DNA of 59,892 nucleotides. It comes from Caldilineaceae bacterium (GTDB lineage Bacteria > Chloroflexota > Anaerolineae > Caldilineales > Caldilineaceae). The notes beneath the pieces are model-generated. The model was not told the origin of the DNA, did not search any database, and was given only the letters and a program-made list of their open reading frames with translations. Shown here piece by piece: positions 10,082 through 20,841 of this stretch. The stretch's first letter is position 1, and the number at the start of each line of letters is the position of its first letter. The stretch is taken from assembly GCA_026989655.1 (NCBI GenBank), contig JALSIX010000088.1, positions 1-59,892 on the forward strand, read 5' to 3'. Both the position numbers and the translations under genes were made by a program.

Positions 10082-11326
10082 TCAGTCGGCGGGCTCGGTG
10101 GGCTGGATCGGGGCGGGCTGGCCGGTGCGGGCCTGGATCTCGGCCAGGGTCTCCTGGACGGCCGCGGCCGCGTCCAGCTCTCCGTGCTCGCGGAAGAGGG
10201 TCAGGGCCTGGGTCAGCTTGGGCACGGCGTGGACGAAGATGCCCAGGTGGGCCAGGGCGTTCCCCTGGTTGGCCAGCAGCCGGGCGTAGCCCAGGGGATC
10301 CTGGGCGGGATCCCGCACGGCCAGCAGCTCCTCGTAGAGCTCCACGGCCTGGGCCAGGTTCTCCCGGGGGTGGGCGGTGGGCAGATGCTGCAGCGCGTTG
10401 GCCAGGTTCAGCTGGGCGCTGGCCCAGGCCTCCGGATGGGTGGTCCGGTCGTAGACCTTCAGGGCCTCTCGCAGGGATTGGACGGCGATGGCCATGCGCA
10501 GCTGATCGCTGGCTGTGGTCAAGGGCATGGCCAGGTAGGCCAGGGCCAGGTTGTTGTGGGCCAGGGCGTAGAGCTCCGGCTGCTCCTCCCGGGTCAGGGT
10601 GAGGAGGGCCGTCTGGTAGCATCGGGCTGCTTCCAGCAAGGGCCCCCGGCGTCCGTCGGCCATCTCCTGGTAGAGGATGCCCAGGTTCAGGGCCATCTCC
10701 GCCCGGACCTGGGGCAGGGCGTCGTCCGGGATGAGGGCCAGGGCCTCCCGGTAGTGGAGAAGGGCCTGGGCGTCCGGGCCCTGCCAGGCTCGTCGGGCGT
10801 CGGCCAGGGCGGCCAGGAGCTGGCCAGCCAGGAGGGGCGAGGTGGGTCGGGCGGCCTCCACCGCCTGGGTCAGCAGGGCCACCGCCTCCGGGAAGCGCTG
10901 GCCTTCCAGCTGGTGGGCGGCCTGGGCCATGAGGACGAAGGCCCGCCGCTCCGCCTGGGCCCTCTGGGGCGCGGGCGGCTCGTCCAGGATCCCCTGGGTG
11001 TAGGCCACCGCGTCCAGGAGCTCCCGCAGCTCGCCGGAGAGGGTGGGGGCCAGGGCCGCGTAGGCCGCCGGGGTGGGCGCCAGAGCGAAGCGGTTGTAGC
11101 GGCTCACCGGGCTGGGGTCCTGGCCCAGGGCGGTGAGGGCCTGCTCCGGTTTCCCGTCCAGGGCCAGGGCGAAGAAGCGCCAGGGATCCGGCCAGCGCTG
11201 GGGTCGCCGCCCCTGGAGCAGGTGGCGCAAGGCCTCTTCGCCCTCCTCGGCCGGGGGCAGGAGGAGCGGGTGGGCTGGGGGCGGGAAGACGCCCAGAGGC
11301 TGGGGTGTGGGAATGGTATGGGCCAT
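10082..11326 (-). CDS. TPR-repeat protein of the hydrogenase operon
   Basis: 414 residues of tandem helix pairs with TPR consensus features (A-x-x-NLGxLYQEM, ALAHNNLALAYLAM, ASAQLNLANALQHL, ARLLANQGNALAHLG). The ATG at 11326 is preferred because GGAGGAG stands 9 nt before it. An upstream GTG at 11350, overlapping the previous stop as GTGA, would add 8 residues. There is no signal sequence. TPR proteins are recurrent in Huc-type operons. They are generic protein-binding scaffolds, so a role in bringing hydrogenase subunits and maturation factors together is an inference. Confidence 0.85.
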   Translation of the reverse strand: MAHTIPTPQPLGVFPPPAHPLLLPPAEEGEEALRHLLQGRRPQRWPDPWRFFALALDGKPEQALTALGQDPSPVSRYNRFALAPTPAAYAALAPTLSGELRELLDAVAYTQGILDEPPAPQRAQAERRAFVLMAQAAHQLEGQRFPEAVALLTQAVEAARPTSPLLAGQLLAALADARRAWQGPDAQALLHYREALALIPDDALPQVRAEMALNLGILYQEMADGRRGPLLEAARCYQTALLTLTREEQPELYALAHNNLALAYLAMPLTTASDQLRMAIAVQSLREALKVYDRTTHPEAWASAQLNLANALQHLPTAHPRENLAQAVELYEELLAVRDPAQDPLGYARLLANQGNALAHLGIFVHAVPKLTQALTLFREHGELDAAAAVQETLAEIQARTGQPAPIQPTEPAD

Positions 11327-11346
11327 GGCTGGGCACTCCTCCGGCG

Positions 11347-11583
11347 TCACAGACCGAAGGGCGGCTGGGCGAGGTCGCGCTCCGCGGCTCGTTTCATCCA
11401 GCTGGCCGCGATCTCGGCCAGGCGGCGGTTGGAGTAGTCCTGGATGCGGTGGCGCACGGCCTGGAGAGGGGGTTCCTGGTGGGGCTCCCAGAAGCCCACC
11501 TCCATGTAGACCACCCAGCGTCCTCGTTCCTCCACCACGGACATGGCCACGTAGGTGGCGTTACGGGTGGGAAAACCGCTCAT
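11347..11583 (-). CDS. Small uncharacterised protein (78 aa) in the hydrogenase operon
   Basis: Reads from ATG 11583 to TGA 11347. A beta-rich N-terminal half (YVAMSVVEERGRWVVYMEVG) is followed by an amphipathic helical half (AVRHRIQDYSNRRLAEIAAS). It overlaps the preceding gene by 23 bp and its stop overlaps a possible GTG of the TPR gene, which supports it being translated. No family recognised. Confidence 0.7.
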   Translation of the reverse strand: MSGFPTRNATYVAMSVVEERGRWVVYMEVGFWEPHQEPPLQAVRHRIQDYSNRRLAEIAASWMKRAAERDLAQPPFGL

Positions 11584-11893
11584 GTTGGGCCTCGGTTCGG
11601 GCAGTGGGTGGCTGGGGCAGGGCCACCCGCAGGGCGCCTTGGCGGGCGTCCCAGAAGGCGGGATAGTCGCCCGGTGGCGTGTCCGGCGGCAACACCTCCC
11701 AGATGAGCACGCTCCGATCCCCCTGGGGGTTGCGCTGCTTGAGGAGCAGGCCGCCTGCCTCCCCGCCCCGCAGGGGCAGCAGCCAGAGCTCCCGGCCCCG
11801 CACCAGGGCCACCAACACGTCCTGGGGGAAGTGCTGTCGGGCCAGGGTGGCGGGGATGTGGAGATAGCCTTGGGGCGTGATGCGTACGTTCAT
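11561..11893 (-). CDS. Uncharacterised hydrogenase-cluster protein (110 aa)
   Basis: Begins MNVRITPQGYLHIPATLARQ and contains LLKQRNPQGDRSVLIWEVLP. The N-terminal 40 residues resemble the swapped-hairpin (AbrB/SpoVT-like) pattern. The remainder is not recognised. I recall similar proteins next to group 2a hydrogenase genes but cannot verify this. Its ATG overlaps the protease stop (ATGA) and its own end overlaps the next gene by 23 bp, so it is embedded in a coupled set of genes. Confidence 0.75.
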   Translation of the reverse strand: MNVRITPQGYLHIPATLARQHFPQDVLVALVRGRELWLLPLRGGEAGGLLLKQRNPQGDRSVLIWEVLPPDTPPGDYPAFWDARQGALRVALPQPPTARTEAQHERFSHP

Positions 11894-12378
11894 GGGCGGG
11901 GTTCGGGTCTCGCGAGCTCGGCCAGGAGGATCTGCGCCAACCGTTCCATGGCAGCCTCCACCGGCGGGGAGAGGGGCGCGCCGAACTCCAGCCCGCCGGC
12001 CTCGATGAGGTAGACGTCGATCTGTTGGGGGTAGTCGTCCTTGAGGAGCCAGCGCGCGAAGGCCAGGGCGTGATCCCAGCGGAAGGCGTGGAGGTGGATG
12101 CCCTCCAGGGGTGGGAGCTGCTCCAACTCCGCTCCGGGCACCTTGTAGAGGGTGCCGGGGGGCTGGCCGGTGCGGCAGGCGTCCACCAGGATCACGTGGC
12201 GGGCGCCCCGCATGCGGAAGGCCACGTCCATGCCCGCGGTGCCCCCGTCCGCCACCTGGACATGCTCGGGCAGTCCCCGTTCCAGCAGGCGCCGCACCAG
12301 GACCGGGCCCACCGCGTCGTCGCCCCGCAGCAGGTTGCCGCAGCCGATGACCAGGGTGTCCACTGGCTGTCCGTACAT
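11890..12378 (-). CDS. hupD: [NiFe]-hydrogenase maturation endopeptidase (HupD/HyaD/HupW family)
   Basis: 162 residues. After nickel insertion this protease removes the C-terminal peptide of the large subunit. The N-terminal GCGNLLRGDDAVGP motif holds the first nickel-sensing acidic residue; ADGGTAGMD and VDACRTG follow the family pattern. The start at MYGQPV is favoured because AGGGAGAG stands just ahead of it and the family begins a few residues before LVIGxGN. It lies 114 bp downstream of hucL, its expected substrate gene, with a hairpin in the gap. Confidence 0.93.
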   Translation of the reverse strand: MYGQPVDTLVIGCGNLLRGDDAVGPVLVRRLLERGLPEHVQVADGGTAGMDVAFRMRGARHVILVDACRTGQPPGTLYKVPGAELEQLPPLEGIHLHAFRWDHALAFARWLLKDDYPQQIDVYLIEAGGLEFGAPLSPPVEAAMERLAQILLAELARPEPRP

Positions 12379-12413
12379 GGCTCTCCCTGTCTGGCCTTCC
12401 AGAACAGAGAGGC

Positions 12414-12437
12414 ACGGGCTGGGGAGCCCCAACCCGT
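12414..12437 (-). other. Intercistronic hairpin between hucL and the protease gene
   Basis: ACGGG-C-TGGG at 12414-12423 pairs with CCCA-A-CCCGT at 12428-12437 around a 4-nt loop, with one mismatch. It lies in the only gap of more than 100 bp inside the operon. It could be an mRNA-processing or 3'-stabilising element that raises structural-gene message over the accessory genes. There is no U-tract, so full termination is unlikely. Confidence 0.4.
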
Positions 12438-12492: not shown

Positions 12493-14106
12493 TCAACAGA
12501 CGCCGTTGACCTGGAAGCGGGCCAGTTCCTTGCCCGTCCTCGCGTCGTAGGCATGGACGGTGCAGACCAGGCAGGAGTCGAAGCTGCGGGCCACGTGGCC
12601 CAGCTCCACCGGGTCCTGCATGTCCGCGATGGGGGCGCCGATGAAGGCGGTCTCCATGGGGCCCCGGACCTCCTGGCTGTCCCGGGGGCCGATGTTCCAG
12701 GCCGTGGGGGTGATCACCTGGTAGTTCTCGATCTTGCCGTCCTTGATGACGATCCAGTCGGCCAGGGCGCCCCGGGCCGCCTCGGTGGCGCCGAAGCCCT
12801 TGCCCTCTGCGTGCTCCACCGGCTTCACGTAGAACTTCTCGTGCAGGTCGATCTCGTCCAGCCACTTCCGGGCCAGCTTGTAGTACTTGGCCGCCTCGTG
12901 CATCCGGGCCAGGACCCGGACCATGACGCTGGGGCCGATCTGGTTGATCACGTTGTGGAAGAGGGGATCGTAGTCCTGCCAGGGCTGGGGATCCGGCTTG
13001 CCCGCGATGACCTGCCGGGCCAGGGGGCCGGCCTCCAGGGGGATGGATCCCTTGCCGGGCACGTCGTAGCGGGGGGCCTTGGCCCAGGTGTACTTGCCTT
13101 CCCGCCGCCCCTCCTGGGGATCCACCGGCTCGGTCACCCCTTCGAAGGGATGGAGCGCGCCGGAGCCCCGGAAGAAGGCGTGGGTGTGGTCCTCCCGTAC
13201 CCGGGCCTGGTCGAAGTCGTGGTAGCCCTCGCCGTCGTAGATGCCGGCCCGGTTGATCAGGGCGTGGTTGCGCCCCTCGATGGTGGGGTGGATGTACTCC
13301 TCGGGCTGGAAGTAGGTGCCGGTGGCCAGGTACTGGCCGTAGCCTGCCCCGAACTTGTCCAGGCCGATCTCCTGGCAGTAGCGGATGAAGAAGCCGCAGT
13401 CCGAGTTGTACTGGCTCTCGTTCTCCTCGACCCAGGCCAGGATGTCGTTCCAGGTCTTGTTCTCCAGCCAGCGGTCCACGGAGCAGCCCAGCCACTGTTT
13501 CTCCAGCCAGGCGTCCCGCCACCATTCCAGGATGGAGATGGAGCGGGTCACGTCCGAGAGGGTGGGGCCGCACATGACGCCCCCGGGGATCATGAAGCTG
13601 GAGTGGGGCCACTGGCCGCCGAAGATGGCGTAGACCTCCACCGGCTTGGCGGACCAGGTGACGCCGGGCTCGTAGCTGGTGCCCACGAAGGGGGCGAAGC
13701 GGCGCACCGCCTCGTCGTAGCCCTTGGCCTTGGCGTAGTTCTTGTTGGTCAGGTCGATGGCGAAGAGGGCGTAGAACCAGCGGGGGATGCTCTGGAGGGT
13801 CTCGCAGGCCTGGGCGATGTTGCGGACCAGGGTGGCGTTGGGCGGCACCTCGGTGCGCCAGGCGGTGTCCAGGGCGTAGGCGGCCTTGTAGAGGTGGCTG
13901 CCCCCGCAGATGCCGCAGATCCGGGGGGTGACGATGAGGCCGGCCTGGGGGTCCTTTCCCTTCAGGATGATCTCGAAGCCCCGGAACATGGCCGCCTCGG
14001 TCCAGGCGTCCACCACCACGCCGTCCTCCACCTTCACCCGGACGTCCAGGTCTCCCTCCACGCGTCCCAGCGGGCTGATGTGCAGATCCACTGCTCTCGT
14101 TGCCAT
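12493..14106 (-). CDS. hucL: Group 2a uptake [NiFe]-hydrogenase large subunit
   Basis: A 537-residue catalytic subunit that binds the [NiFe] centre and oxidises H2. The proximal motif RICGICGGSH supplies Cys64 and Cys67. The distal motif DSCLVCTVH supplies Cys512 and Cys515, with cleavage expected after His518, releasing a 19-residue peptide. The distal motif has Ser in place of the usual Pro of DPC, which I associate with the group 2a type (cyanobacterial HupL, mycobacterial HucL). It is separated from hucS by 13 bp. It has no signal, consistent with a cytosolic enzyme. Confidence 0.96.
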   Translation of the reverse strand: MATRAVDLHISPLGRVEGDLDVRVKVEDGVVVDAWTEAAMFRGFEIILKGKDPQAGLIVTPRICGICGGSHLYKAAYALDTAWRTEVPPNATLVRNIAQACETLQSIPRWFYALFAIDLTNKNYAKAKGYDEAVRRFAPFVGTSYEPGVTWSAKPVEVYAIFGGQWPHSSFMIPGGVMCGPTLSDVTRSISILEWWRDAWLEKQWLGCSVDRWLENKTWNDILAWVEENESQYNSDCGFFIRYCQEIGLDKFGAGYGQYLATGTYFQPEEYIHPTIEGRNHALINRAGIYDGEGYHDFDQARVREDHTHAFFRGSGALHPFEGVTEPVDPQEGRREGKYTWAKAPRYDVPGKGSIPLEAGPLARQVIAGKPDPQPWQDYDPLFHNVINQIGPSVMVRVLARMHEAAKYYKLARKWLDEIDLHEKFYVKPVEHAEGKGFGATEAARGALADWIVIKDGKIENYQVITPTAWNIGPRDSQEVRGPMETAFIGAPIADMQDPVELGHVARSFDSCLVCTVHAYDARTGKELARFQVNGVC

Positions 14107-14119
14107 GGTAACCCCCTTG

Positions 14120-15091
14120 TTAGACGACGAACATGTCTTCTTTGGACCACCGAGGGGCCGCGATCCGGGCTGCGGCGGCGTGGGCCATGTAGGTGACGTG
14201 ATCCGTGCCCGTGGGCACCTCCTTGGGGATGGAGCCGCTGATCTTCTGGGTCTTGAAGACCGTGCCGGGCCGCAGGTCGAAGAAGGGGAACTCCGGCTCG
14301 GTGCAGCCGGTGCAGGGCATGCCGGCCCGGGTCTTGGACGACTGGCGGTTCCACAGGATGCGGTTGCAGGGGGAGCGGGTCACCGGCCCCCGGCAGCCGA
14401 ACTCGTAGAAGAGGCAGCCCTTGCGGGTTCCCTGGCCGAACTCCTCGGTGGCCTGTTTGTACTCGAAGAACTGGACCCGGGTGCAGCCGGTCTGGGTGAA
14501 GGACTTGAAGAAGGTGAGGGGGCGCTGCAGATCGTCCAGGGCGATGTCCTTGGCCCGTCCGCTGGCCACCGCCACCAGGATCTGGGTCACCCAGTCCGGG
14601 TGGGCGGGGCAGCCGGGGATGTTGATCACCGGCAGGCCCATCTTGGAGCGGAAGTCTGCGCCCAGGAAGCCGCCGTGTTCCCGTTTCAGGTACTGGAGCC
14701 CCACCGAGTCTGTGGGGTTGGGCGCGGTGGCGGGGATGCCGCCCCAGCAGGCGCAGTCGCCGATGGCCACCACGATCTGGGCCTGGGCCGCGATCTCGGC
14801 CACCCAGTCCTTCATGGGGCGGTCCGCGAACATGTCGTAGCGGCCGCTGCCGTTGGGCCCCAGGATCACCGTGCCCTCGAAGACGAAGATGTCCAGGGGC
14901 CGTTCTCCCCGGGCGCAATCCCAGAAGATCTTCTGGGCCTGTTCGCCCAGCTCCATGCCCAGGGAGGGGTGCCAGAGGATCTCGATGCCGAAGTCGGTAA
15001 CCAGATCCACCGCGCTGGGCTCTTCGGCGTTGAGGAACGACATGGTGTTCCCGCTGCAAGCGCCGCCCTGTAACCACAAGAGTGATGCCAT
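14120..15091 (-). CDS. hucS: Group 2a uptake [NiFe]-hydrogenase small subunit
   Basis: A 323-residue iron-sulfur subunit relaying electrons from the [NiFe] site. It starts MASLLWLQGGACSGN directly, with no Tat signal peptide, which separates group 2a from membrane-bound group 1 enzymes. Cys12 is followed at position 15 by Asn where classical enzymes have the second cysteine. Later motifs (GDCACWGG, GCPAHPDW, GCLFYEFGCRGP, MPCTGCTEPEFPFF) match the cyanobacterial HupS and mycobacterial HucS sequences I remember. The start is set by GGAGGAGGG just upstream and by the family N-terminus; a start 15 codons earlier is less likely. Confidence 0.96.
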   Translation of the reverse strand: MASLLWLQGGACSGNTMSFLNAEEPSAVDLVTDFGIEILWHPSLGMELGEQAQKIFWDCARGERPLDIFVFEGTVILGPNGSGRYDMFADRPMKDWVAEIAAQAQIVVAIGDCACWGGIPATAPNPTDSVGLQYLKREHGGFLGADFRSKMGLPVINIPGCPAHPDWVTQILVAVASGRAKDIALDDLQRPLTFFKSFTQTGCTRVQFFEYKQATEEFGQGTRKGCLFYEFGCRGPVTRSPCNRILWNRQSSKTRAGMPCTGCTEPEFPFFDLRPGTVFKTQKISGSIPKEVPTGTDHVTYMAHAAAARIAAPRWSKEDMFVV

Positions 15092-15177: not shown

Positions 15178-16041
15178 CTATTTCCCGTGGGGGGAGACGG
15201 CCTGCCCCAGACGCCCGCCGAACTCCACCAGGAAGGCCAGGGCCCGACGCACCTCCGGATCCCGCAGGGAACGGAACAGCGTCCAGAGGCTGGGCGGCTC
15301 GGGCCGCTGACGGGTGGCCTCGTAGCCCTCCACCAGGGCATTCCCCACCTCGGCCACGATGCCCACGGTCCGGGGCGCGAAGACGCCGGAGCCCATCAGG
15401 GCCGCGAACTCCTCCGATTCCAGGACCCGCTGGAGCCGTTCCGTCACCTCCATGAGCTGGGGGATCATCTGGACGAAGACGGGCAGGATCTGGAGGAGCT
15501 GGGGCAGGGCCTCGGCCAGGGTGGCCAGCATGGCCACCTCGGCCGTGGGGGCCGTGTCCAGGGCCTCCCGGACGCTCTCGGCCACGTTGTCCGCCACCTC
15601 GTCGCCCCGGCGGAGGAAGCTGTCCAGCATCTCCAGGGCGGCGGCCACCAGGTCGATGCGGTCCAGGACCTGGTTGATGGCCTCGAAGGTGGCCGGCTCG
15701 CCCAGCCGTCGGTTCAGCTCCAGGATCCGGGGCAAGGAGGCGGTGAGCTCCGGCAGGGCGTCGATGAGGGTGGGCAGGTGCTCGGCCAGGGTCTGGGTGG
15801 TCCCGGGAACGTCCAGATCCGGCGCGGGCACGGCCTGCTGCACCTCCTGGATGCTCTCGGAGACGTTCTCGATGATCTCGTCGCCCCGACGCAGGAAGCT
15901 GTCCAGGGAGGTGAGGGTCAAGGCCATCACGTCCAGCCTGTCCAGCACCTCCAGGAGCACCGCCGCGGTCTCTGGGTCGTTCAGCCGCTGCTGCAGCCGT
16001 TCTTGGGGGGTGAGGAAAGCCACGCCGTTTGTGCTCGCCAT
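15178..16041 (-). CDS. DUF1641-like helical protein with an internal duplication, upstream of hucS
   Basis: 287 residues, all-helical. Two similar blocks stand near residues 33-66 and 124-157: LDRLDVMALTLTSLDSFLRR then GDEIIENVSESIQE, and LDRIDLVAAALEMLDSFLRR then GDEVADNVAESVRE. The C-terminal part (about residues 200-275, LMGSGVF..LRDPEVRRALAFL) resembles DUF1641, a domain otherwise found beside formate dehydrogenase genes. Hydrophobic stretches such as LPQLLQILPVFVQMIPQLM could mediate membrane contact or oligomerisation, but there is no clear transmembrane helix. Its place just upstream of hucS is where, as I recall, hucM lies in mycobacteria. No homology to HucM is claimed. Confidence 0.75.
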   Translation of the reverse strand: MASTNGVAFLTPQERLQQRLNDPETAAVLLEVLDRLDVMALTLTSLDSFLRRGDEIIENVSESIQEVQQAVPAPDLDVPGTTQTLAEHLPTLIDALPELTASLPRILELNRRLGEPATFEAINQVLDRIDLVAAALEMLDSFLRRGDEVADNVAESVREALDTAPTAEVAMLATLAEALPQLLQILPVFVQMIPQLMEVTERLQRVLESEEFAALMGSGVFAPRTVGIVAEVGNALVEGYEATRQRPEPPSLWTLFRSLRDPEVRRALAFLVEFGGRLGQAVSPHGK

Positions 16042-16096: not shown

Positions 16097-16792
16097 TCAG
16101 CCTCCGGCGGCGGGGGATGCCCTCTTCACCCCAGCCCGCTCCTCCAGGAGTGTCAGCCACGCATCGAGCCGGCCCTTCTTGGCCGCGGTCTCCACCACAG
16201 GCACCCCGGGGTTGACCGCGTGGATGGCCGCGAGGGCTTCCTCCCGGTCGAATTCCGTGGCCTGGGCCAGATCCATCTTGGTGAGGAGCACCAGGTCCGC
16301 GGCGTGGAACATGGTGGGGTATTTCAGGGGTTTATCCTCCCCCTCGGTGACGGAGAGGAGCACCACCCGCATGGATTCGCCCAGATCGTAGCTGGCCGGG
16401 CAGACCAGGTTGCCCACGTTCTCCACGAAGAGGAAGTCCAGCGCTGCCAGGTCCCACCCTTCCAGGTGGGCGGCCACCATGGCCGCCTCCAGGTGGCAGA
16501 TGCCGTCGGTGACGATCTGGCGAATGGGGGCGCCGCTGCGGGCCAGGCGCCGGGCGTCGTTCTCCGTGGCCAGATCTCCTACCAGGGCCGCGACCGCGTG
16601 CCCCCGGGCGCGAAGCTGGCTCAGGGTTCTCTCCAGCAGGGTGGTCTTGCCCGAGCCCGGGCTGGAGACCAGGTTGACCACGAAGACCCGGGCCGCCGCG
16701 AAGCGGGCCCGCAGCTCCTGGGCCAGGCGGTCGTTCTTGCTCAGGACCCCTTGACGGATCTCCAGAAGTCTTGGCCTCGTGTTCTCGCCCAT
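16097..16792 (-). CDS. hypB: Hydrogenase/urease nickel-insertion GTPase HypB
   Basis: A 231-residue G3E-family GTPase that, with HypA, delivers nickel to the large-subunit precursor. The P-loop SSPGSGKT is at 43-50 and the conserved CHLEA nickel/zinc motif follows in the middle of the protein. There is no histidine-rich nickel-storage N-terminus. The ATG at 16792 is preferred because AGGAGGGAGG precedes it by about 11 nt. A GTG at 16858 would add 22 residues and start 12 bp after hypA. Confidence 0.96.
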   Translation of the reverse strand: MGENTRPRLLEIRQGVLSKNDRLAQELRARFAAARVFVVNLVSSPGSGKTTLLERTLSQLRARGHAVAALVGDLATENDARRLARSGAPIRQIVTDGICHLEAAMVAAHLEGWDLAALDFLFVENVGNLVCPASYDLGESMRVVLLSVTEGEDKPLKYPTMFHAADLVLLTKMDLAQATEFDREEALAAIHAVNPGVPVVETAAKKGRLDAWLTLLEERAGVKRASPAAGG

Positions 16793-16870
16793 CTCGGGAA
16801 CGTCCACCTCCCTCCTGGGTTGGCTTTTCTGGATGGACCGACTTTCACCGAGTTCCACCGAGACCGCGTT

Positions 16871-17278
16871 TCACCGAGGCGGCTTGCCCGTGGAGCCGTT
16901 CGGGGATCGGCAGGGGGCCGGCTCGGGGACCGGATCGGTGTACTCCAGGGAGACGATCTCCAGCTCCCGGCCCTGAACGATCTGGCCCGTGGGCTCGCCG
17001 CAGACCGGGCAGCGAAAATGTTGGATGCCGGGCAGAGTGCGGTCGGCCTGGCAACGGGAGCAGTGGACCACCACCGGCAGTTCCTGGATGGCCAGCCGGG
17101 AGCCCTCCAGGACGGTGCCCTTGGCCGCGATCTCGTAGGCGAAGAGGAGGGCGTCCTGGACCACGCCGGACAGGGCCCCCAGGCGCAGGTGGACCACGTC
17201 CACCCGGCGGATGCCCATGGAATCCGCGGCCTGGCTGGCGATCTCCACCAAGCTATAGGCAATGGAAAGCTCGTGCAC
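16871..17278 (-). CDS. hypA: Hydrogenase nickel-incorporation protein HypA
   Basis: A 135-residue nickel metallochaperone. It must begin Met-His-Glu because the N-terminal amine and His2 bind nickel. The only place giving MHELSIAYSL is a GTG codon at 17276-17278, so GTG is the start. The zinc site is CxxC..CxxC with Cys73/76 and Cys90/93. The last 20 residues (a Pro-rich tail) exceed the usual family length slightly. It is the first gene of the hydrogenase operon. Confidence 0.95.
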   Translation of the reverse strand: MHELSIAYSLVEIASQAADSMGIRRVDVVHLRLGALSGVVQDALLFAYEIAAKGTVLEGSRLAIQELPVVVHCSRCQADRTLPGIQHFRCPVCGEPTGQIVQGRELEIVSLEYTDPVPEPAPCRSPNGSTGKPPR

Positions 17279-17621: not shown

Positions 17622-18281
17622 CTAGGAGCGCTGGGGGGGCTGTTTCAGGATGACCAGGCCTCTCTCCGCGGCCAGGCGCACCAGCTCCACCTGGTTGCGG
17701 GCGCCCATCTTCTGGAGGATGTTGGCCCGATGCCGGTTGGCGGTGTGGGGGCTGATGCAGAGGATCTGGGCGATCTCATTGGCGGTGTGCCCCTCCGCGA
17801 TGAGCTGGAGGATCTCCCGCTCCCGGGGGGTGAGGAGCTCTGCGAAGGTGGCCATCTGGGCGTCCATCTCCTCCAGGTCGATGGCCACACCGATGTAGCG
17901 CTCTCCCTGCAGGATGGCATCCAGGGCCCGGAAGAGCTCGTCCTCCATGGCGTGCTTGAGGATGTAGCCGTCCGCGCCGCCCCGCAGGGCCTGGACCACG
18001 AAGGCGGTGTCGTCGTACATGGAGAGGACCAGCTTCTTCATCCGCGGCAGGTGATGGCTGAGGCGACGCAGGGTCTCCAGGCCGTTCATCCGGGGCATGG
18101 AGAGATCCAGGATGATCAGGTCTGCCTGGGTGCGCTGGGCGCAGTGGAGGGCCTCCTCGCCGTCGCAGGCCTCGTCCACCACCTGGTAGCGGCCGCTCAT
18201 CTGCAGGAGCGCGGCCAGCCCTCGACGCACGATGTGGTGGTCGTCGGCCAGGATGACCGACACAGGCCGTGGTCCGGACAT
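17622..18281 (-). CDS. NarL/FixJ-family response regulator
   Basis: 219 residues. The receiver domain (about 7-125) has the acidic pair Asp13/Asp14 and the phospho-acceptor Asp59 in LIILDLSMP. A LuxR-type helix-turn-helix follows (about 150-210; LTPREREILQLIAEG and HTANEIAQILCISPHTANRH). It probably binds DNA when phosphorylated by the kinase encoded 33 bp upstream. Targets are unknown. It is the last gene before the terminator at 17575-17605. Confidence 0.93.
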   Translation of the reverse strand: MSGPRPVSVILADDHHIVRRGLAALLQMSGRYQVVDEACDGEEALHCAQRTQADLIILDLSMPRMNGLETLRRLSHHLPRMKKLVLSMYDDTAFVVQALRGGADGYILKHAMEDELFRALDAILQGERYIGVAIDLEEMDAQMATFAELLTPREREILQLIAEGHTANEIAQILCISPHTANRHRANILQKMGARNQVELVRLAAERGLVILKQPPQRS

Positions 18282-18314
18282 GATGCGTGCCCCTGTGGTT
18301 CGGAGACGGGGAAG

Positions 18315-20033
18315 CTAGGCCAAGGGGATCGTTCCCTGGATGGCCGTGCCCACCCCAGGAGTCGATTCGATGTGGAGGGAGCCGCCCAGCATTTTAGCCC
18401 GTTCCTGCATCCCGATCAACCCCAGCCCTCGCTCGCCCACTTCCTTCATGTGGAAGCCTTGCCCATCGTCGCGGATGGCCAGGTGCAGTCGCTCCCCGTC
18501 GCAGACCAGGGTGATCCAGACCTGGCTGGCCTGGGCATGCCGGGCCACGTTGGTCAGGGCCTCCTGGACGATGCGGTAGCTGGCCGTCTCCACGGCCTGG
18601 GGCACCTGGACCAGGTTCAGGCTGTCGAAGTGGACGGTGAGCTGGGTGCGCTTGCGGAAGGCCAGGATGTACTGCCGCAGCGCGGCCTCCAAGCCCAGTT
18701 CGTCCAGGGTGGGGGGGCGCAGCTCCCGGGCGATGTTCCGCAGCCGGGCGGTGGCCTGGTTCACCTGGTGGCGGAGGGCATCCAGCTCCTCCCGCAGGGC
18801 CATGGCCTCCGGCGGCAACCGCTGGGCCAGGACCTGCAGCCCCAGTTTGATCCCCACCAGGGCCTGGCCGGCCTCGTCGTGGAGCTCCCGGGCGATGCGC
18901 CGCCGCTCCTCCTCCAGGAGCTGGACCTGGCGCGCGGCCAGGGCCCGGAGCCGGGAGCGCTGGGCCGCCAGCTCCGCCAGCAGGTTGGCGTTGCGCAGGG
19001 CCAGGGCCGTGGAGTGGGTCAGGGATTCCAGAAAGTCCACGTCGGACCAGGTGAAGGGCTCCTGGCCTCCCTTCTTGTTGTGGAGCTCCACGAAGCCCAG
19101 CACCCGGTCCTCCAGCCCCAACACCGGCACGCAGATGGCGTTGGCCACCTGGAAGCGACGGGCCAACAGCGGGTTGGCCAGCCGGTCCCGGGGATAGTCG
19201 TTGGTCAGGTAGGGGCACTGGTTGAGCACCACCCAGCCGGGCGTCCCCTCTCTGGCCGGCCAGCGTTCCCGGAAGTCCAGCCACTGGCCCCGGCGCCAGT
19301 AGCCGTCCACCCACACGTCCTGGGGGCCCACCAACCCGGCCATGCCCGCGTCCGCGCCCAGGAAACCCGAGGCGTGCTCCACCAGGCGGCGCAGGAGCAG
19401 GGCCGGCTCCAGCTTGGCGTTCAAGGAGGCGTTGAAGGCCAGCAGGTTCTCGAAGGAGGAGGCCCACTCCAGCATCTTGGCGAAGAGCTGGGCCCGCTCC
19501 AGCCCGGCCGCGGCCAGGAGCGCGATGGTCCGGGCCAGGTCCATGTGGCTCGGGGTGAAGGGCCGCTGGGGATCCCGTCGATAGCACTCCAGGGTGCCCA
19601 GCAGATGCTCCTGGTGGTTGAGGATGGGGAGGGCCAACAGCGAGGTCGCGCCGCACTCCTCGGCCAGCTGGGAGCCGACCGGGGACTCGGCCCGCAGGTC
19701 CTGGACGAGCAGGGGACGTCGGTGTTCCAGCAGCCAGCCGGCCACGTCCTCCCCTGGTCCCAGGGAGCGGTCCAGGGAACGGAGCTCTCCCCGGTGGAAG
19801 GCCCGGCCGATGCGGATCCGGCCATCCTGGTGGATGCCCACGGCCACCGTGTCCCCGCCCAGGGCCAGCGCGGTGGCCTCGGCCAGGCGTTGGACCAGGG
19901 CATCGGTGTCCGGCTCTTCCACCACGATGCGGGCGATGGCCCGCAGCCGTTCCAGGTGGGCCTCCAGGGGAACCTGGTCTGGGAGGGCCGTGGGGTGGCC
20001 GGAGATCATGGGCTGGCTCTGGGAGGTGGGCAT
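18315..20033 (-). CDS. GAF-domain sensor histidine kinase (HisKA_3/NarX type)
   Basis: 572 residues, soluble, with no membrane helices. Two GAF-like sensor regions occupy about residues 20-180 and 195-340. The HisKA_3 dimerisation domain carries His385 in ARELHDEAGQAL, the hallmark of kinases paired with NarL-type regulators. The C-terminal ATPase domain has DDGQGF and GERGLGLIGMQERA. The start at 20033 gives a normal N-terminus, but no good ribosome site is seen; ATG 20009 is an alternative. The gene lies 91 bp after livF on the same strand and is probably co-transcribed with the importer. Confidence 0.92.
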   Translation of the reverse strand: MPTSQSQPMISGHPTALPDQVPLEAHLERLRAIARIVVEEPDTDALVQRLAEATALALGGDTVAVGIHQDGRIRIGRAFHRGELRSLDRSLGPGEDVAGWLLEHRRPLLVQDLRAESPVGSQLAEECGATSLLALPILNHQEHLLGTLECYRRDPQRPFTPSHMDLARTIALLAAAGLERAQLFAKMLEWASSFENLLAFNASLNAKLEPALLLRRLVEHASGFLGADAGMAGLVGPQDVWVDGYWRRGQWLDFRERWPAREGTPGWVVLNQCPYLTNDYPRDRLANPLLARRFQVANAICVPVLGLEDRVLGFVELHNKKGGQEPFTWSDVDFLESLTHSTALALRNANLLAELAAQRSRLRALAARQVQLLEEERRRIARELHDEAGQALVGIKLGLQVLAQRLPPEAMALREELDALRHQVNQATARLRNIARELRPPTLDELGLEAALRQYILAFRKRTQLTVHFDSLNLVQVPQAVETASYRIVQEALTNVARHAQASQVWITLVCDGERLHLAIRDDGQGFHMKEVGERGLGLIGMQERAKMLGGSLHIESTPGVGTAIQGTIPLA

Positions 20034-20124
20034 ATGGGATCGATCGTGGCCGGTCGGAGGTCGCGGGCTCCGCGTCGACACGGATGGCCTCCATGGAGCC
20101 GGCGCCGCGGCGGGTTTCCGGCCC

Positions 20125-20841
20125 TCACTCCTCGCCCAGGTAGGCCTTGCGGACCATCTCGTTGGCCTGGAGTTCCTGGGCCGTTCCCTCCAGCACGATC
20201 TCCCCGGTCTGGAGGACATAGCCTCGGTGGGCGATCTGCAGGGCCATGAGGGCATTCTGTTCCACCAACAGGATGGTCATTCCTGCCTGGTTGATGCTCT
20301 GGATGGTCTCGAAGATCCGCTCCACCAGCATGGGGGCCAGGCCCATGCTGGGCTCGTCCAGCAGCAGGAGCCGGGGGCGGGCCATCAGGGCCCGGCCGAT
20401 GGCCAACATCTGCTGTTCCCCGCCGGAGAGGGTGCCCCCGAGCTGGTCCCGGCGTTCCTGGAGGCGCGGGAAGAGGTGGAAGACGTACTCCAGGTCCTCC
20501 TGGATGCCGTCTGGGTCCTCCCGGATGAAGGCCCCCATCTCCAGGTTCTCCATCACGGTGAGCCGGGGGAAGATCCAGCGCCCTTCCGGGGCCTGGGCCA
20601 CGCCCAGCTCCGTCACTCGATGGGGTGGGAGGCCGTCGATGCGCTCTGCCTCCAGGTAGATCTCCCCGTGGCGAGGATGGACCAGGCCGGAGATGGTCCG
20701 GATGGTGGTGCTCTTGCCCGCGCCGTTGGCGCCGATGAGGGTGACGATCTCGCCCCGGTCCACGGTCAACGAGATGCCCTTCAGCGCGTGGATGTGGCCG
20801 TAGAAGGCGTGCACGTTGCGCAGTTCCAGCATGTGGGCCAT
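20125..20841 (-). CDS. livF: Branched-chain amino-acid ABC transporter ATP-binding protein LivF
   Basis: A 238-residue ATPase. Walker A is GANGAGKST, the signature motif is LSGGEQQMLAIGRAL and Walker B is LLLLDEPSMGL. The pattern APEGRWIFPRLTVMENLEMGA is typical of LivF. It couples ATP hydrolysis to uptake through LivH/LivM at the cytoplasmic face. It starts 6 bp after livG. Confidence 0.95.
   Translation of the reverse strand: MAHMLELRNVHAFYGHIHALKGISLTVDRGEIVTLIGANGAGKSTTIRTISGLVHPRHGEIYLEAERIDGLPPHRVTELGVAQAPEGRWIFPRLTVMENLEMGAFIREDPDGIQEDLEYVFHLFPRLQERRDQLGGTLSGGEQQMLAIGRALMARPRLLLLDEPSMGLAPMLVERIFETIQSINQAGMTILLVEQNALMALQIAHRGYVLQTGEIVLEGTAQELQANEMVRKAYLGEE

Follow-up and report, generated by a model that had tools for sequence, protein, structure and literature searches.

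A two-module form of HucM in the Huc-type hydrogenase operon of a Caldilineaceae bacterium

The huc operon and the parts of the HucM protein

The gene at 15178 to 16041 of the window, which here denotes the whole stretch of 59,892 nucleotides that was analysed, is encoded on the minus strand in an operon for a group 2a (Huc-type) [NiFe]-hydrogenase. The genes on that strand follow the order hypA-hypB-hucM-hucS-hucL-maturation protease, with these positions and assignments:

16871..17278, minus strand: hypA (Pfam HypA, E 6.8e-29; start inferred from the Pfam match)
16097..16858, minus strand: hypB (Pfam cobW/HypB/UreG, E 1.1e-20)
15178..16041, minus strand: hucM, two-module HucM/DUF1641 scaffold protein (ATG start, 287 aa; HucM matches and family profile)
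14120..15091, minus strand: hucS, [NiFe]-hydrogenase small subunit, group 2a, Huc type (7uur_D, E 1.1e-188)
12493..14106, minus strand: hucL, [NiFe]-hydrogenase large subunit (Pfam PF00374, E 1.1e-80)
11890..12432, minus strand: hydrogenase maturation protease (Pfam HycI, E 3.4e-16; TIGR00072, E 4e-41)

The location of hucM between hypB and hucS, together with the match of HucS to 7uur (E 1.1e-188), agrees with the preliminary description of this DNA, in which the gene had been placed directly upstream of hucS. The hucS reading frame ends at 14120 and can start at either 15091 or 15079, with the probable start at MASLLWLQ. The menaquinone-binding residues Lys212, Tyr229, and Tyr301 of Mycobacterium smegmatis HucS are kept in the window protein as K208, Y225, and Y297, numbered in the 319-aa window fragment with an offset of 4. 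The maturation protease is followed on the same strand by a TPR-like protein (10082-11350) and a small conserved protein (approximately 11561-11870), both of which are also found in the huc operons of Thermus and Sulfobacillus. At the other end, directly upstream of hypA, the same strand encodes, at 17622-20255, a GAF-type histidine kinase (by ORF reading) and a response regulator with a LuxR-type HTH. This pair is a candidate regulator of the huc operon.

An internal repeat in HucM was evident from a local alignment of residues 16-109 with residues 108-199, which scored 192, compared with a mean of 32 and a maximum of 60 for shuffled sequences; none of 2000 shuffles reached 192. The repeat has a period of 93 residues, and its unit consists of the LDxLD..LDSFLRRGDE..NVxES block and the helical segment behind it. 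The duplication noticed earlier is therefore real and extends beyond the core LD-R-D..SLDSFLRRGDE..NV-ES by which it had been described. The DUF1641-like tail reported at the same time was recovered as a Pfam PF07849 match at residues 243-280 (E 1.1e-11; 44.8 bits against a cut-off of 21). A match to CorA (E 1.4e-4, under the cut-off) was put down to coiled-coil similarity. The protein was divided into the following parts:

15847..15999, minus strand: docking module 1, aa 15-65 (HucM matches of the first-repeat half; module HMM; Arg52 invariant)
15886-15888, minus strand: Arg52, the invariant arginine of module 1 (conserved in all 129 modules)
15721..15846, minus strand: inter-module segment, aa 66-107, mostly a predicted long amphipathic helix, H78-114 (AlphaFold2 secondary structure; hydrophobic moment)
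15568..15720, minus strand: docking module 2, aa 108-158 (7utd_Q match at aa 109-159; module HMM; Arg145 invariant)
15607-15609, minus strand: Arg145, the invariant arginine of module 2 (conserved in all 129 modules)
15316..15567, minus strand: stalk segment, aa 159-242, predicted helices H166-207 and H223-245 (AlphaFold2; amphipathicity)
15202..15315, minus strand: DUF1641 domain, aa 243-280, putative membrane foot of the stalk (Pfam PF07849, E 1.1e-11)

An AlphaFold2 monomer model of moderate confidence (pLDDT 73.6, pTM 0.33) is all-helical, with long helices at residues 78-114 and 166-207 behind the blocks. A Foldseek comparison of this monomer with the PDB gave no match with E below 0.001, a result that is uninformative for an extended helical protein whose relative forms an intertwined oligomer. 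The inter-module segment has a hydrophobic moment of 0.53, against 0.36 for shuffled sequences (47 proteins), and the post-module segments have 0.55 against 0.40. When two- and three-module proteins are taken together, the amphipathicity of the post-module segments is 0.51-0.55 against 0.33-0.40. Net charge is positive in the tail and strongly negative in the body, which is what a membrane foot would be expected to show.

Identity of the protein and its linkage to hydrogenase genes

The window protein matches M. smegmatis HucM (MSMEG_2261; PDB 7utd, 7uus; PMC10017518) directly, with E 1.9e-13 for 7uus chain Q and E 4.1e-9 for 7utd_Q, the modelled 60-residue cage segment. The first-repeat half by itself matches the same two chains (E 5.4e-12 and E 1.7e-9, respectively), and a family profile of 41 relatives matches HucM with E 3.9e-28. 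The 51-residue module is homologous to the modelled cage segment (residues 20-79 of M. smegmatis HucM), and the homology covers module, stalk, and DUF1641 tail. Both proteins are encoded upstream of hucS and belong to the same partner enzyme, with a conserved menaquinone site. M. smegmatis HucM, however, has 188 residues and one module, whereas the window protein has 287 residues, two modules, and an extra inter-module helix. Membership in HucM is based on sequence homology and on a location near hucS in a group 2a (Huc) operon, both of which are found here, and the window gene is very probably the hucM gene of a Huc-type [NiFe]-hydrogenase (group 2a), encoding a protein with two modules and a HucM-type function. 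The presence of two modules instead of the one per chain in the solved structure is treated as a variant, and the protein still counts as HucM, because most sampled HucMs outside Actinomycetota have two modules as well.

The preliminary description had proposed that a different fold does the job of HucM at this locus. Displacement of HucM by an unrelated DUF1641 fold would accord with the low overall identity to HucM and with the structure paper, which does not use the name DUF1641 for HucM (PMC10017518). Yet the direct sequence homology to HucM, and the DUF1641 domain found in 22 of 22 actinomycete HucMs and in 41 of 41 two-module HucMs scanned, leave this explanation with practically no probability, and it is counted as refuted. 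As HucM is itself a DUF1641 protein, the contrast drawn between the two was a gap in naming and not a difference in fold; the other half of the proposal, that the protein does the same job as HucM, appears right as judged by homology and conservation. It has also been considered that the protein is an assembly or maturation factor for the hydrogenase only and not a structural subunit. Its place among hyp genes in some loci would suit such a role, but the homologue HucM is purified together with HucSL, and the oligomer does not form without it (PMC10017518), which makes this explanation highly improbable.

A HucS search yielded 80 loci with flanking DNA, which represent the best 80 of 270 loci and are skewed toward relatives of the window HucS. 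Of these best 80, 73 have a HucM homologue close to hucS, so that the gene has the conserved linkage with hydrogenase genes that had been put forward as a check on the original proposal. In six of the seven loci lacking HucM, the contig ends at most approximately 2.5 kb upstream of hucS, and one locus (L090) has no HucM homologue in 4.8 kb upstream of hucS. Among the same best 80 of 270, hucM is on the same strand as hucS in 66 loci and divergent in 7 loci of Planctomycetota and Rhodothermota. Another 11 huc loci of Chloroflexota were re-read with extended flanks, and each of them has a HucM homologue with two modules.

No HucM or DUF1641 protein was found within 6 kb in the Huc-like operons of Alphaproteobacteria and Bacteroidota (plasmids; L115, L116, L117, L122, L118, L119), and no HucM within 6 kb of two HupUV/HoxBC-type sensor loci that served as controls. 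In the alphaproteobacterial operons, two small hypothetical proteins are encoded right after hucL, and these might take the place of HucM. The HucS positions that are conserved in loci with HucM and changed in loci without it lie largely around the menaquinone site (203-218, 298-313). At the sequence level, the changes fit an altered quinone- or HucM-facing surface, with phylogeny as a confounding factor. Two DUF1641 loci beside hyp genes (L159 in genome G364 and L178 in genome G303), for which the HucS search listed no match in either genome, are possibly decaying or split huc clusters.

Module number and assembly of the complex

Modules were counted with an HMM of the 51-residue docking module. 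One module is present in 27 of 27 Actinomycetota HucMs, in Thermus and Sulfobacillus, and at one divergent Anaerolineae locus. The remaining sampled Huc loci with a readable HucM, from the best 80 of 270, have two modules, save two separate lineages with three, one in Anaerolineales (L035) and one in Bryobacter (L048/L049). Huc has been solved only in its single-module form, while at least three layouts exist by module number. Across phyla, the modules are spaced 91-99 residues apart in most proteins. One arginine, corresponding to Arg52 and Arg145 in the window and to approximately Arg60 in M. smegmatis HucM, is invariant in 129 of 129 modules and might serve self-assembly of the cage rather than HucSL binding; most other conserved module columns are common to both copies. 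In a HucS+HucL tree, the third module was gained twice, and the clade of single-module actinomycetes has two-module Acidobacteriota as its sister group. A topology that unites the multi-module forms in one clade is also compatible with the HucS+HucL data (p-AU 0.216), so that both module loss in Actinomycetota and module gain in the others are accommodated, and module-module identities likewise do not discriminate between the two.

The solved M. smegmatis complex is C4-symmetric and has an 8:8:4 composition, its four HucM chains, with one module each, serving as the scaffold for four HucS2L2 lobes (PMC10017518; PMC10792529). The C-terminal parts of HucM form a hydrophobic-lined tube to the membrane, and deletion of hucM abolishes the oligomer (PMC10017518). 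By homology, the chains of the window protein would intertwine around an axis, with their modules holding HucS2L2 lobes, their hydrophobic-lined amphipathic helices enclosing a menaquinone conduit, and the DUF1641 foot touching the inner face of the membrane. Menaquinone would climb the tube to HucS Tyr229/Tyr301 and be reduced there with electrons from H2. Contact of HucM with HucS/HucL is suggested by homology and conservation, and it is inferred from the mycobacterial complex that both modules bind HucSL, that the helices form the tube, and that the foot contacts the membrane.

For the stoichiometry, homology and counting slightly favour a two-tier C4 tetramer, in which each module carries its own tier of four lobes (16 HucSL in all), over a pseudo-tetramer made of two chains (8 HucSL), the rest of the probability falling to other arrangements. 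It is tentatively proposed that Huc outside Actinomycetota is assembled on a multi-module HucM, with two (or three) tiers, each of four HucS2L2 lobes, arranged along a single menaquinone tube. The computed mass is 1.65 MDa for the two-tier C4 tetramer and 0.82 MDa for the two-chain version. In the latter, two two-module chains would replace four single-module chains in the same four-module cage with 8 HucSL, leaving two feet instead of four, and the duplication would alter the number of chains and not the complex. Such an arrangement is a possibility to be taken seriously, although short of probable: two chains of two modules each supply as many HucM modules, four, as the solved 8:8:4 complex contains, and the repeat alignment reveals sequence similarity between the inter-module helix and the post-module one. 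It would, however, require the chain to fold back over a predicted 37-residue helix, and the three modules per chain found in two lineages do not divide into a four-module cage, which favours one tier per module.

The two modules need not be equivalent, and one of them could dock HucSL while the other acts as a spacer or as a self-assembly element of the stalk. Conservation across proteins is indeed somewhat lower for module 2 (within-class identity 0.40) than for module 1 (0.46), and the consensus residues Arg4 and Asp19 are less kept in module 2. The key arginine is nevertheless without exception in either module, and each of the two gives a strong match to the module HMM, which renders docking by a single module unlikely. 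Four chains with one working module each would have a computed mass of 0.89 MDa.

DUF1641 in other redox systems and the meaning of module number

The HucM family profile also matches ForE1, YjlC, and a protein deposited under the name NDH-2 membrane coupling protein. Each time the best match lies in the stalk and tail and outside the docking modules. These matches lend support to the earlier suggestion that DUF1641 is a general redox-enzyme adaptor, which is in part known already. ForE1 (YjgD) of the Bacillus subtilis ForCE formate dehydrogenase (PDB 8rqz) shares the DUF1641 tail region and is, like HucM, a small subunit without cofactors through which a soluble dehydrogenase can reduce menaquinone, and it is needed for menaquinone-linked formate oxidation (PMC8808070). 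It differs in its partner, a Mo formate dehydrogenase, and in that its best profile match does not extend to the docking modules. YjlC and the NDH-2 coupling protein (PDB 9snk, 9pxk) match the same stalk and DUF1641 part of the profile, but the matched stretch is without a docking module and the partner is, by entry name, NDH-2. HysM of an archaeal group 2e hydrogenase is in its authors' model a HucM homologue that forms a tube; by their figure it has 18% identity to HucM (PMC11018855).

The DUF1641 loci checked in a Chloroflexota sample are of two kinds, all of them adjoining either an SQR-like flavoprotein or huc/hyp genes. In this sample, docking modules in full length are confined to the DUF1641 proteins by huc/hyp genes, with weak partial matches in two SQR-linked ones. 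As the docking modules are limited to the huc/hyp-linked kind and the tail is present in both, the tail seems to be common to the family and the front part to be specific to the partner. The source genome encodes two more DUF1641 proteins. One (L003/L135, contig C27) has a different internal repeat and lies beside an SQR-like flavoprotein and a molybdopterin oxidoreductase with NrfD, and the other (L002/L136, contig C17) lies beside an SQR-like protein and a DsrE-like protein. Treating HucM, ForE, YjlC, and the SQR-linked proteins as one DUF1641 family provides a functional hypothesis for a Pfam domain labelled as of unknown function, namely that DUF1641 is a membrane foot and quinone conduit for soluble dehydrogenases.

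The observation of a duplicated DUF1641 protein beside hucS is thus confirmed and its interpretation corrected: the protein is a two-module variant of HucM. Huc-type hydrogenases help consume atmospheric H2, and with a two-module HucM in most sampled phyla outside Actinomycetota, their complex may be built differently there from the solved one. The difference in module number gives a clear prediction on the native mass of the complex. If each module carries its own tier, the complex would reach approximately 1.65 MDa and have 16 hydrogenase active sites, or 24 with three modules, per membrane foot, and the mycobacterial complex would be the smallest of a size series set by module number. Should module number set the size of the complex, the HucM family would be a natural series for the number of enzyme lobes per quinone tube and would offer a simple handle for enzyme engineering.
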